From the NCBI RefSeq assembly GCF_013362815.1, contig NZ_JABFVK010000038.1, positions 1 to 64,000 on the forward strand: a stretch of 64,000 nucleotides of DNA, written 5' to 3'. Under the pieces are notes generated by a model that was not told the DNA's origin, did not search any database, and saw only the letters and a program-made list of their open reading frames with translations. This DNA is from Hamadaea sp. Its GTDB lineage: Bacteria; Actinomycetota; Actinomycetes; Mycobacteriales; Micromonosporaceae. Positions 6,515 to 52,009 of the stretch are shown piece by piece (position 1 is the stretch's first letter; every line of letters starts with the position of its first letter). Position numbers and translations under genes: made by a program.

Positions 6515-9500
6515 CGGGACTCTCCTCGCAGCAGCTCCGGCCGAGCCTGACGGATGAGGCGTACCGCCACCGGCAGGGCGATCAGCAGACAGCCCAGGCA
6601 GGCGAGCGCGACGGCCGCCAGCGCGCCGGGCGCGGGTTGCCAGCGGGCCTCGCCGGTAACCCCGGTGGTCACCAGCGGTATGCCGGGCAACAGCAGTAAC
6701 GCGACCGCCACGCCGGAGAGGAAGCCGAGCCCGGCCGGCCAGCCGAGCAGCGTGACGAACTCCCGGCGTACGGCTTTGCGCAGCACCGGTTCGGGCACGC
6801 CCGCGACGAGCAGCGCCGCCGAACCGTACCGGCGCTGGTCGGCCCCGACGCGTACGGCCAGCAGGACGATGCCCAACGCGAGCAGGATCGCCACCAGCGC
6901 GCCGACGCCGTAGAGCCGCAGCGCCAACGCGGGCGCGCGCCGCCCCAGCCGATCCTCGTACGCCGACAGCGTCTGGCTCGACCGCACCTGGAGGCCGTGC
7001 GCCGCGAGGCGTTCGACCAGATCCTTGGGCGCGCCCGCACCTGCCCAGACCTCGTACTGGATCGAACTGCCGTTGTCGACCGAACCGGTCAGGTCCTGCG
7101 CCTGAGCGAGGCCGTAGTCGAGGTCGACGATGATTCCATGGCCCGACGTCCCGGGCACGAGACGGTTCGTAGCCACGGCGGTGAAAGTCTGCGGCTGCGT
7201 GGCGAACGCCATGAACGGCCAGTTGTCGCCGGTGACGTCGACCGCCGGAATCGGGCCGGCGAGCAGTCCCGGCAACGCCTTCGGGGCATGCAGCCGGAGA
7301 AGCCGGACGTCGCCGTTGCCGTCGGCCTGGATCCGGGCCTTGACCTCGGCGTCGCCGCTGAGGTCGGCGTTCACGCCGATCAGCTCGGCCGGCTGCCAGA
7401 CGGCGGTCCCGCCGATCGGCACCTCGCCGGAGTCGGACGAGATCCGCTTGATCGTCAGGGTGCCCGTCACCATGACCGCCCGCGCCGGTGGCCGGAGCAG
7501 TTTGAGCACCGCCAGTTCGCCCACCGGAACCTGACCGGTGTACTCGTGGGTGCCGCTTTGCAGCTTGCCGAGCACGACGGTCTCCTGATGGTCTCCGGTA
7601 CGCACCTCGACCGCCACGTCGAGCGGCACCTGGCCCAGTCCGTCGGCGTCGAGGACGACCGTCAGCCGCCCGCCGACCGGAGACGCCGGGGGCTCGGCCG
7701 GGCGCAGCTGCTCGGCGATCCCCTTGAGGTCCACATCGGAGTGTCCGTACCAGCTGGCGGTCTTCGCGAGCCGGTCGCTCTGTACGCCGATGACGTTCAC
7801 GATTTCACCGTCGAAGAACTCCGCCCGGCGTACGACCGCCATCGCCGAGCCGTCCGGGGCCGCCGCGTCGACTCCGTCGACCAGCTGCTGCGGCCCGGCT
7901 GCGGAGACTCGATAGACGGAGGGCGCGCCGACCGCGCCGTTGGCCGCCTCGGCTCGGGCCTGGGCGGCCACGTCCCACGCCACGGCGGAGAACCCCATGA
8001 GCGAGGCGGCCACGGCGACCACCACGACGATGCGTTGCCGCCCGGGGCGACGGGACAGGGAGGCGCTGGTCAGCATGCCGATCGGGTCCGCCCGGCGGCG
8101 CGTCGACCGGACTCGGGCCGCCGCGATCAGGCTGAGCAGACGGCCGCCCGCGACGCCCACGACGATGGCGAGCAGCGGAGCGGCGAGCACGGCCAGCCCC
8201 GACTCCCGGTCCTGCACCGTGGTCACCAACGCCGCGACGGCCAGGGCGACCGCGGCTCCTTCCAAGGCGCCCGCCCGCCACGTCGTGCGCTGCGGAACCC
8301 GGCGCAGCAGGTTGATGACCCGGGTGCGGAACACCTTACGAGAAGCGACCGCCGCCGCTGCGTACGCGGTCAGCAGAGCGGCCGCCACCGCCACGACCGG
8401 CCCCCAGTCCCAGCCGAGCGGCGTACCGGGGGCGAGCCAGAGCCCGGAGAGCACCGCCAGGACGACTCGGCTCAGCAACAGCCCGGCGGGTGCCGCGACG
8501 GTGATCAACGTAAGCACTTCGGCCAGCCCGAACTCGGCGACCCGGCCCCGGGCGTACCCGTGGAGTCGGGCGAGGGCGATCTCCGGACCGCGTTCCTCGG
8601 TCAGGGCCGCCACGAGCACCATCAGGACGACGAGGGCGAGGATCAGCAGCGGCACCGCGCCGACCGGAACGGTCTGGGAGATCGCCTCCTGGTCCCGGCG
8701 GATCTCGGTGATCACCGTCGGAAGGCCCGAGCGCACCGACATCTGCTGGGAGCTCAGATAGCTGGTCAGATTTGCCAGGTCGCCGTCGAGCCGGGCCACG
8801 CCGGCATCGTCCACCTTGCCGAAGTCGAACTCGTACAAGGCCGTACGCCGGACGACCGCGTCGGCGCGCCCCTCGACGTCGGCGGCCACCCCGGTGAAGA
8901 TCGCGTCGATGCTCCAGTACCGCGCGCCGAGGTGCGGGTCGGAGACCGGCGAGTATTGAAGCAACGAACCCCAGGCCGGGTCGAGTCCGTCCTTGGGGGT
9001 GAACAGGCCGACCACAAGCGGCCGGTCGGTCGTCTGCGGCAGCGGAGCCGACCCGCCGCCGCCCTTCGCCGAGCGCCCGACGTCGGCCGACGGGCCGAGG
9101 GTGACCGGCAGCCGCTGGCCGACGGTGACCTTGTAGTGCTCGGCGGTCCGCGCGCTCACCATGACCTCGCCCGCGGCAGCCGGACAGCGTCCGGTCAGCG
9201 TCACGTGCTCGCAGACGCCCGGCTGGAAGACGAGGTGACCGGTCACGACGTCGCCGACGCCCACCTCCGCGAGCTTCAGGTTCGTCTCGGCGTACGCGGA
9301 CTGCCCGGCGCGCAGCGAATTCAGGTAGGACGACATCAGGAAACCGTTGTCGATCAGCGAAATGTCCTGCTCAAGGCTGGCTCGACCGGCTGGCGGCGTC
9401 GACGGGTTCGTCGTCTGCAGCTGCACGGCGATCGATGAATTGCCCGCCACCCCCGAGCCGAGCAGGTCGCGTACCACCGACTCCTGAGCGGCCCGCAGGT

Positions 9501-14790: not shown

Positions 14791-14991
14791 GTGTCCATCT
14801 CCCTGTCGTCGCTGGACTGGCGGAAGAGCCGCCGTTGTGATGCCGGTACCTGTGTGGAGGTCGCGTCGCTAAAAGACGAGATCGTCATCCGCGACTCGAA
14901 GGACCCGGATGGGCCCGTCCTGCACTTCACTCGCGACGAGTGGACGGCCTTTGTGGACGGCGTACGGGACGGCGACTTCACGTTCAACTGA
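14791..14991 (+). CDS. DUF397 protein (Scr2-like), copy 1
   Basis: GTG start; DWRKSRRCDAGTCVEVASLKDEIVIRDSKDPDGPVLHFTRDEWTAFVDGVRDGDF. Confidence 0.92.
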   Translation: MSISLSSLDWRKSRRCDAGTCVEVASLKDEIVIRDSKDPDGPVLHFTRDEWTAFVDGVRDGDFTFN

Positions 14992-15142: not shown

Positions 15143-15340
15143 ATGTCCGACATCCCCGACTCCCTGCCGTGGCGGCGATCCCGGCGCTGCGACTCCGGGA
15201 CCTGCGTAGAGGTGGCCGTCCTCGACGACGAGGTGCTGGTCCGCGACTCGAAGGATCCGCACGGTCCCGTCCTGCGCTACTCACGTGCGGAATGGCAGGC
15301 GTTCCTGGCCGGCGTACGGGAGGGCGAATTCGACCGATGA
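15143..15340 (+). CDS. DUF397 protein (Scr2-like), copy 2
   Basis: PWRRSRRCDSGTCVEVAVLDDEVLVRDSKDPHGPVLRYSRAEWQAFLAGVREGEF. Confidence 0.92.
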   Translation: MSDIPDSLPWRRSRRCDSGTCVEVAVLDDEVLVRDSKDPHGPVLRYSRAEWQAFLAGVREGEFDR

Positions 15341-24633: not shown

Positions 24634-24718
24634 TGATCACGCAGTTGCGGAGTTGATCAGGGCGTCGTGGACACGACACGCCGGGTGATCACGCCCGATA
24701 GTTCATGATCGCGCGGAA
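24634..24718. repeat. Intergenic GATC-rich element C2
   Basis: Reverse complement gatcatgaactatcgggcgtgatcacccggcgtgtcgtgtcc aligns with C1 at 88-156. Confidence 0.75.
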
Positions 24719-30723: not shown

Positions 30724-30786
30724 CGCTGGATCAGGGTTCTCGGTCGAATCTTGGCGCAGGATTCGACCGAGAACCCTGATCCAGCG
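30724..30786. repeat. Intergenic hairpin element A3: perfect 27-bp arms, 9-nt loop
   Basis: CGCTGGATCAGGGTTCTCGGTCGAATC / GATTCGACCGAGAACCCTGATCCAGCG. Confidence 0.95.
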
Positions 30787-32398: not shown

Positions 32399-33784
<1,386 letters not shown>

Positions 33785-33846
33785 GTTGATCATGAACCTA
33801 CGGTTCCGCCTGTCCGGCGTGTCGCGCCCTCCGGTTCATGATCAAC
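33785..33846. repeat. Intergenic element B1: 14-bp perfect terminal inverted repeat
   Basis: GTTGATCATGAACC ... GGTTCATGATCAAC. Confidence 0.93.
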
Positions 33847-33869
33847 GCCGGTCAGTCAGCCCGCCGGTC

Positions 33870-34847
33870 TCACCAGCGGTCGTGCACCAGCGGCCGGATC
33901 AGCTCGTCGTAGACCTCGGTGACCTGACGCATAGCCTCCTCGCTCAGCGGCGCTAGACCGGCCGCCGAGGCGTTGGCCTCCGCCTGCTGAGGTGAGCGCG
34001 CGCCGGGGATGACGACGCTGACCCCGGGCTGGTCGATGATCCAGCGCAGGGCGAACTGCGCCATCGTCGCGCCCGGCGGCACCAGCGGACGCAGTCGGCG
34101 TACGGCTTCGAGGCCGACGTCGAAGGGCACGCCGGAGAAGGTCTCGCCCACGTCGAAGGCCTCCCCGTGCCGGTTGTAGTTCCGGTGATCGTCGGCGGCG
34201 AACGTCGTGTGCTCGTCGTACCGGCCCGACAGCAGGCCGCTGGCCAGCGGCACCCGGGCGATGATGCCGACCCCGGCCGCCTGTGCGGCGGGCAGTACGC
34301 GCTCCAGCGGCTTGAGCCGCAGCGCGTTGAGGATGATCTGCACGCTCGCCACGTTCGGCCGGGCGATCGCCGTCAACGCCTCGTCGCACGTCTCGACGCT
34401 CACCCCGTACGCCGCGATCCGCTTCTCGGCGACCATCGTGTCCAGCGCGTCGTAGACAGCGTCGGAGGAGTACACGGGGGTGGGCGGGCAGTGCAACTGG
34501 ACGAGGTCGAGCGTGTCCATCTGCAGGTTCTGCCGGGATCGGTCGTTCCAGCGCCGGAAGTTGTCCAATGTGTACGCAGACACTTCCTGTGGCACCCGCC
34601 GGCCCATCTTGGTGGCGATCGTCAGCCCGGGGCGGTCCTTGCGGAACTCGCCGACGAACTGTTCGCTGCGGCCGTCGCCATAGACGTCGGCGGTGTCGAT
34701 GAAGGTGACGCCGGCGTCCACGGCGGCCTGGAGCACGGCTTCGGCGTCGTCGGCGGCGACCTCGCCCCAGTCCGCGCCCAGCTGCCACGCGCCGAGTCCG
34801 ACCTTGCTCACGGTGCGGCCGGTGCGGCCGAGGATCGCGGTGTCCAT
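33870..34847 (-). CDS. Aldo/keto reductase
   Basis: TVSKVGLGAWQLG, VTFIDTADVYGDGRSEQFVGEFRK, LDLVQLHCPP. Confidence 0.93.
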   Translation of the reverse strand: MDTAILGRTGRTVSKVGLGAWQLGADWGEVAADDAEAVLQAAVDAGVTFIDTADVYGDGRSEQFVGEFRKDRPGLTIATKMGRRVPQEVSAYTLDNFRRWNDRSRQNLQMDTLDLVQLHCPPTPVYSSDAVYDALDTMVAEKRIAAYGVSVETCDEALTAIARPNVASVQIILNALRLKPLERVLPAAQAAGVGIIARVPLASGLLSGRYDEHTTFAADDHRNYNRHGEAFDVGETFSGVPFDVGLEAVRRLRPLVPPGATMAQFALRWIIDQPGVSVVIPGARSPQQAEANASAAGLAPLSEEAMRQVTEVYDELIRPLVHDRW

Positions 34848-34886
34848 GCGGTCACCTTAGCGGTCGGCGTACCGGGGAATCCGGGT

Positions 34887-34948
34887 TCGATCATGAACGT
34901 AGGGGCGGCGACACACCGACAGGTGGGACCATAGGTTCATGATCAACG
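34887..34948. repeat. Intergenic element B2 (minus orientation), in a divergent intergenic region
   Basis: Reverse complement cgttgatcatgaacctatggtcccacctgtcggtgtgtcgc aligns with B1. Confidence 0.9.
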
Positions 34949-34982
34949 CGAACAGCTTAGTGGTGACTAGGCGGTAGGTGGT

Positions 34983-35017
34983 GGGATTGGGTAAACAGGG
35001 GGCGGGATTGGACAAAC
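34983..35017 (+). promoter_or_regulatory. Direct repeat gggattgg(g/a)(t/c)aaac x2, 21-bp period
   Basis: gggattgggtaaac (34983) and gggattggacaaac (35004) upstream of ATG 35060. Confidence 0.5.
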
Positions 35018-35059
35018 GCGGGATTCCGCGTACGGATCTTGACTAGCGTCATCGACGTT

Positions 35060-36136
35060 ATGACGATCCTGACTCTCGGGGTGGCCGCTGTTCAGGCGTT
35101 CCTGCCGGTGACGGCCCCCGCTCCCCAGCCCGCTGCCGCCCTGCCGGACTCCCCGGTCCAGATCGCGGTGCAGACCCAGTCCTCCGGCGCGAACACGGTC
35201 TACCACCTGGTGCTGACCAACACTTCCGCGCTACCGGTCACGACGACGGTCGTGCAGCGGATGCCGGACGGCACGACCAGCCTCGTCGCCGACGGCGCGG
35301 CGATCGACGGCGACCGGGTGAGCTGGTCGGCGAAGGTCGCACCGAAGGCCGACGTGACCCTCCAAAGCTCTGGTGCGCTGCCGGTGCCGCATGCCGCCGA
35401 GCCGGTGACCGCCTGCGTCTCGGACGCCGCCTCGGGACGCCTGCTCGACTGCTTCGCCACCGACGTCGCAGCCGTGGCGGCTCCGGAAGCGCCCTGGTGG
35501 CGCCGTTGGCTGCCGTACGCAGCCCTGGCTGCTGCTCTCGGCGTACTCATCTGGTTGGGTGTGCGAGCCTGCCAACGACGGCAGGCGCGACCCGCCCGCG
35601 AACCGGAACCCCGGCGGCCCCGGCGGGAAGTGGCCTGGTGGGTGCCGGTCAGCGTGGCCGCGGCCGCAGTGATCGCGGTGAGCGCGGCGGCGTTGGTGAT
35701 CTTCGCGCCGAAGATGGCGGAAGCGGTCGAGAACGCGCAAGGCGTACGCGCGCACGCCTGGAACGGGCCGCAAGCCGACGCCGAGCTGGGCGAACAGGCG
35801 TCGGACGGCACCGCGCACTTCACCATCTACTCCGTGACCTGCTCGAACGGCAAGACCACGACGTGCGACGTGACCGCGTCAGTCGCGGCGGGCGACAAGA
35901 CCGTCCAGCTCTTCCGGAGCATGCAGCGGGTGTACACATCGGACACTACTTGGGTGGAGCCGGACCCGGCCGCCCTCGTCGCCGCCAACGGTGGCGATCC
36001 CTTCGCGGCCGCCGTAGTGCCGGGCACCGAACGCCTGATGGCGCTGCGGTTCACCGTCCCGACCGGCGCGCAGCCGCAGCGGCTGGAGCTGCACGACGGA
36101 GCCTTCGCCGGAGGAGTCGTGCTGGACCTGGAATGA
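35060..36136 (+). CDS. Hypothetical membrane protein
   Basis: N-terminal signal, two TMs (PYAALAAALGVLIWLGV; VSVAAAAVIAVSAAALVIFAP). Confidence 0.75.
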   Translation: MTILTLGVAAVQAFLPVTAPAPQPAAALPDSPVQIAVQTQSSGANTVYHLVLTNTSALPVTTTVVQRMPDGTTSLVADGAAIDGDRVSWSAKVAPKADVTLQSSGALPVPHAAEPVTACVSDAASGRLLDCFATDVAAVAAPEAPWWRRWLPYAALAAALGVLIWLGVRACQRRQARPAREPEPRRPRREVAWWVPVSVAAAAVIAVSAAALVIFAPKMAEAVENAQGVRAHAWNGPQADAELGEQASDGTAHFTIYSVTCSNGKTTTCDVTASVAAGDKTVQLFRSMQRVYTSDTTWVEPDPAALVAANGGDPFAAAVVPGTERLMALRFTVPTGAQPQRLELHDGAFAGGVVLDLE

Positions 36137-36972: not shown

Positions 36973-37038
36973 CGCGCTGGATCAGGGATCTGGGTCGTAT
37001 TTTCCGCAAGATTCGACACGGATCCCTGATCCAGCGCG
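36973..37038. repeat. Intergenic hairpin element A4: 18-bp perfect outer arms
   Basis: CGCGCTGGATCAGGGATC ... GATCCCTGATCCAGCGCG. Confidence 0.93.
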
Positions 37039-51945: not shown

Positions 51946-52009
51946 CGTTGATCATGAGGTTTGGGGTCGCGACACGCCGTCACGGGGGACCCTGGGTTCA
52001 TGATCAACG
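51946..52009. repeat. Intergenic element B3 (minus orientation)
   Basis: CGTTGATCATGA ... TCATGATCAACG; reverse complement interior gaacccagggtcccccgtgacggcgtgtcgcg aligns with B1/B4. Confidence 0.92.

Follow-up and report, generated by a model that had tools for sequence, protein, structure and literature searches.

An aldo/keto reductase gene (AKR) of Hamadaea sp. is inverted relative to its counterparts in three congeners, and the inverted segment is bracketed by two mutually inverted copies of a dispersed palindromic repeat (T1) that, like the inversion, were gained on the lineage of the genome studied. These statements were derived from assembled genomes: the window (the whole stretch of DNA analysed, 64,000 nucleotides) is part of contig C70 of a 7.45 Mb genome in 124 contigs (G000), and the comparison genomes were three of the same genus, G001 (one contig, complete), G002 and G003. 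We infer that the repeats caused the flip, together with the order of events and the recombination mechanism. The reading that we favour, with somewhat more belief than doubt, is that the T1 copies are ordinary REP-like repeats and that the inverted pair around AKR mediated a one-off inversion.

The inverted aldo/keto reductase gene and its flanking repeats

The locus comprises the following features (window coordinates):
32399..33784, plus strand: lpd-like gene (pyridine nucleotide-disulphide oxidoreductase; PF07992, PF02852), left neighbour, collinear in the three congeners
33785..33846, plus strand: B1, T1 repeat (profile E = 5e-12), bounding the flipped segment on the left and abutting the lpd stop codon
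33847..34888, minus strand: inter-repeat segment, reversed with respect to the congeners (33872-34846 aligns opposite to the flanks in G001, G002 and G003)
33870..34847, minus strand: AKR, the flipped gene (PF00248, E = 1.2e-59)
34854..34859, minus strand: possible -10 box (TAAGGT) 6 nt upstream of the AKR start, read from the sequence and the relatives' spacers
34889..34947, minus strand (family orientation): B2, T1 repeat (profile E = 7e-16), bounding the flipped segment on the right, with AKR starting on one side and the membrane-protein gene on the other
35060..36136, plus strand: membrane-protein gene, right neighbour, collinear in the congeners (Pfam match only sub-threshold)

Relative to the window, blastn alignment to G001, G002 and G003 gave matches on one strand for the lpd and membrane-protein genes and on the opposite strand for AKR (the membrane-gene match in G003 was partial). 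In these congeners the three genes share one strand (lpd, a gap of 15-17 nt, AKR, then the membrane gene), and AKR is inverted in the window genome only. The AKR protein is 80-92% identical to those of the three congeners, and AKR is 92% identical to its counterpart in a Hamadaea MAG. No T1 copy, equivalent to either B1 or B2, was found at the AKR locus of G001, G002 or G003. G001 and G002 have almost the same lpd-AKR spacer, so we regard the compact order as the ancestral state and attribute the flip and the two elements to the lineage of the window. No exact inverted match exceeds 16 nt, which makes an assembly artefact an unlikely source of the flip.

An earlier reading of the window, made from the sequence only, had suspected an inversion, and the congeners bear this out. 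It had also placed B2 in a divergent gap and AKR between two inverted copies, and both descriptions hold: the plus-strand gene beyond B2 starts at 35060 and AKR lies on the minus strand, while B1 (plus) and B2 (minus) are 83% identical when aligned with gaps, their longest exact common run being 16 nt. This likeness falls in the 69th percentile of T1 pairs and is ordinary for the family. The hexamer TAAGGT is possibly part of a leaderless AKR promoter, and the relatives carry TAGAGT at a similar place before AKR; a consensus promoter scan found no promoter at this locus.

The T1 repeats and their placement

T1 is a repeat family dispersed across the genome, its members being imperfect palindromes of ~60 bp with the form GTTGATCATGAACC...CATGATCAAC. 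The motif TGATCATGAAC was found eight times in the window with at most one mismatch (0.43 expected), and the 58-nt pattern GATCATGAAC-N20-50-TGATCAA gave 187 strand-hits in the genome (both strands were tallied, and symmetrical copies are thus counted twice), against 0 for a reversed control pattern. The repeat pattern was present in 28 of the 151 family genomes surveyed; T1-type repeats are plentiful only in Hamadaea (G003 excepted) and in two further genera of the same bacterial family, g17 and g20, and the stem sequence differs per group. Three sub-types (T1, T2 and T3) were told apart by eye, and a second palindrome family, also intergenic, was noted beside them:
T1: 58 nt, asymmetric core around CGACGGCGTGTCG
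T2: 57-58 nt, near-perfect palindromes
Second palindrome family: GCTGGATCAGGG...CCCTGATCCAGC, ~62 nt; window 30724-30786 and 36973-37038, C31 near 93612, G002 C206 near 665-730

T3 copies at window 24650-24712 and C70:70363-70422 have an extended conserved left flank, TTTCYGCGC, and several T3 copies with this flank occupy orthologous places in G001. The G001 positions orthologous to window 51947-52008 and C70:89960-90100 hold related elements with another stem (GTTGATCATGGAGTT...AACTCCATGATCAACG), as though each genome had exchanged its stems. The window also contains a 171-nt direct repeat (14809-14979 and 15161-15331; 71% identical, spacing 352).

The T1 consensus is 58 nt (GATCATGAACCTAGGGTCCCG...), strongly conserved in the left arm and the outer ends and variable in the inner right arm, and its predicted fold is a long hairpin. 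T1 copies outperform mononucleotide shuffles in folding (mean z -3.4; -2.1 for B2), and by these predictions T1 can form an RNA hairpin. Known RNAs were dropped as an identity for T1, because no Rfam match was obtained anywhere in the window. An attC-like cassette site, an idea taken from the GTT...AAC ends, was also dropped: by reading only, GTTGATC does not fit the attC consensus GTTRRRY. A literature search on such repeats in Hamadaea or actinobacteria returned nothing relevant.

Placement was scored for 28 sampled T1 copies with a home-made gene caller: 27 fall outside predicted genes, 15 are in convergent and two in divergent gaps (B2 being one of the two), and 22 have an upstream gene directed into the repeat (median distance 4 nt). 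Compared with 390 gaps of at least 70 bp, convergent sites are in excess (p = 1e-5) and divergent sites in deficit (p = 0.006). Facing T1 pairs are spaced 17-19 nt apart. The bases preceding T1 are 49% C and 20% G, versus 36% C and 31% G in other 3' flanks. Judged by position and folding, the T1 hairpin may act as a terminator or RNA 3'-end stabiliser; the hairpin has no T-run, and no intrinsic terminator (a GC-rich stem, then a T-run) was found in 33700-35200.

The divergent site of B2 had been taken as an argument against a pure terminator role. The site is truly divergent, but the argument drawn from it is weak, because B2 is one of only two exceptions among the 28 copies and because undoing the flip would place it downstream of AKR. 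The flip can explain the exceptional placement, and strand context, such as a copy in a divergent gap, is a poor clue to repeat function once the gene itself has been reversed.

In genus g17 a comparable arrangement was examined:
L251 (genus g17, G117:C12), about 7045-7500: MGMT-like gene bracketed by inward-facing T1 copies, the right copy running into the likely promoter

Most of the eleven species compared retain both elements, including the one in the divergent gap upstream of proB, and the MGMT-like gene is divergent from proB at all g17 loci where proB adjoins. No flipped MGMT-like gene was found among the g17 loci examined, and the extension of gene flipping to this genus was rejected, the bracketed gene not being inverted. 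As an element sits there in a divergent gap with no inversion, B2 could in principle have reached its site without a flip.

A second flipped gene and the association of T1 with local inversions

A DUF4031 gene on contig C28 shows the same pattern as AKR, with a flip and an inverted T1 bracket in the window genome only:
C28:88116-88177: T1 copy, inward-facing
C28:88208-88463, inverted: DUF4031 gene, between the inward-facing copies
C28:88485-88545: T1 copy, inward-facing

DUF4031 is inverted with respect to both neighbours when compared with G001 and G002, and with respect to the upstream neighbour when compared with G003; no T1 copies were found at the locus in G001 or G002. The two C28 copies resemble each other unusually closely, at the 97th percentile of T1 pairs, and the longest exact match between paired copies at the AKR and DUF4031 loci is 16-17 nt. 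Where the window genome has T1, the DUF4031 3' junction of G002 holds another palindrome (GCGCTGGATCAGGG...) of the second family, and that of G001 an apparent decayed palindrome, so that gene-junction palindromes seem to be replaced over time. Exact matches to TGATCAACGCCGGTCA are confined, genome-wide, to the two flipped loci, where this sequence lies at the inner flank of the left element (window 33839-33854 and C28:88170-88185), a coincidence that may be due to chance.

Alignment of about 790 kb to G001 (630 kb and 161 kb, with some overlap on C124; C20 and C22 lay outside the comparison) yielded four local inversions. Two of the four are flanked on both sides by inverted T1 copies; the ends of the other two lack T1:
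C124:81214-82443: local inversion relative to G001, without T1
C31:93219-93579: local inversion relative to G001, without T1

The proposition that every local inversion is T1-bracketed was dropped once these two emerged from additional sequence and a reduced length cut-off. In tests that were post hoc, picked after the cases had been seen and based on small counts, T1 occupied 21 of 717 gene junctions versus four of eight inversion breakpoints (p about 5e-5), and two of the five genes or intervals inside inward T1 pairs were flipped versus about 2 of 650 others (p = 3e-4; the figure of 650 was estimated from gene density, and the fifth inward pair is on C8). The other three inward pairs enclose unflipped intervals.

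Proposed origin of the flip

In the favoured reading, the ancestor would have had all three genes (lpd, AKR and the membrane gene) closely spaced on a single strand. A T1 copy would then have arisen on each side of AKR in the window lineage, the two mutually inverted, and a crossover or template switch between them would have turned the AKR segment in place. The flip would have carried the right-hand copy (B2) from the downstream to the upstream end of AKR, the pre-flip site of B2 being the AKR/membrane-gene junction, where AKR ends. The matching history of DUF4031, the post hoc excess of T1 at inversion breakpoints and the placement of T1 chiefly at gene 3' ends argue for a repeat-mediated flip; the two local inversions without T1, the three unflipped inward pairs and the unflipped bracketed gene of g17 argue against it. 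Exact matches of 16-17 nt are short for RecA-dependent recombination, and no intermediate with T1 copies and an unflipped AKR was found among the congeners compared.

Copies and flip might instead have arisen together, by a one-step replicative inversion in which a T1 copy beside lpd or the end of AKR transposed across AKR, creating the inverted copy as it turned the gene. Their co-occurrence in the window genome only, at both loci, and the close likeness of the C28 pair are in line with such an event, but the likeness of B1 and B2 is not above average, the expected inverted target repeats are not seen (by reading) next to the copies and the genome has no Y1 transposase; we regard it as rather unlikely. 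We know of no transposase for T1. Somewhat less credible again is an inversion of other cause, with T1 reaching the new gene junctions later. The apparent turnover of elements at junctions, the preference of T1 for convergent gaps, of which the new lpd/AKR junction is one, and the two inversions without T1 would all suit a late arrival, which nevertheless leaves unexplained both B2 in a disfavoured divergent gap and the presence of inverted-orientation copies at every one of the four breakpoints of the two flips.

A programmed invertible switch (inverton), in which a recombinase would flip AKR reversibly via B1 and B2, could account for flipped segments with flanking inverted repeats at two loci. 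It is nonetheless very improbable, given that the segment comprises an entire gene together with its start region, that the copies differ by about 17% and that all three relatives have a single orientation and no repeats. The sequence-only reading had likened the arrangement of one gene between inverted copies to a composite insertion, B1-AKR-B2 having come in as a mobile cassette, and had proposed a check on relatives. That check found AKR in the same context without the elements in G001, G002 and G003, with the protein identities given above, and the likeness of B1 and B2 is ordinary for the family; barring a loss and regain of AKR at that very site, we give this explanation almost no credence. 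Beyond the preferred one-off inversion, dispersed 3'-end palindromes in Micromonosporaceae could form a general gene-flipping system in which inverted pairs reverse single genes, with a dedicated recombinase or template switching at replication forks as the route and single-gene inversions continuing, a broad reading that we consider doubtful.

Comparison with known systems

REP/BIME elements (GTAG and CGTC families) are short, high-copy, intergenic repeats of 20-40 bp with a GTAG or CGTC end tag (PMC3733652); actinobacteria are not mentioned in that survey. T1 is likewise a high-copy intergenic imperfect palindrome predicted to fold into a hairpin, which favours convergent or unidirectional gaps and often occurs as close facing pairs, but its unit is about 60 bp, its consensus end has no GTAG/CGTC tag and its genome has no Y1 transposase. 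In REPINs, two inverted repeats form a unit mobilised by RAYT transposases (PMC3116915), and T1 pairs are similarly two inverted repeats, spread through one genome. A search for RAYT/Y1_Tnp (PF01797) gave no match in the genome, while control genomes were positive, and a RAYT-mobilised REP was accordingly dropped as the identity of T1. As in invertons (PMC11892184), the AKR and DUF4031 segments are inverted between inverted repeats relative to other genomes; unlike in invertons, the repeats are members of a dispersed family differing by 17%, and a whole gene is flipped.

How bacteria invert whole single genes intact is an open question, for which homology in promoter and 3' regions, upstream and downstream of the gene, has been considered a possible route (PMC6220195). 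The flips described here resemble those cases in that single genes are reversed in place, and differ in that both breakpoints carry one repeat family and that the flips were polarised with congeners. The comparison suggests that T1-type repeats can flip single genes, and since the breakpoints of two polarised, lineage-specific flips coincide with inverted gene-end repeats, the question becomes testable at defined loci.
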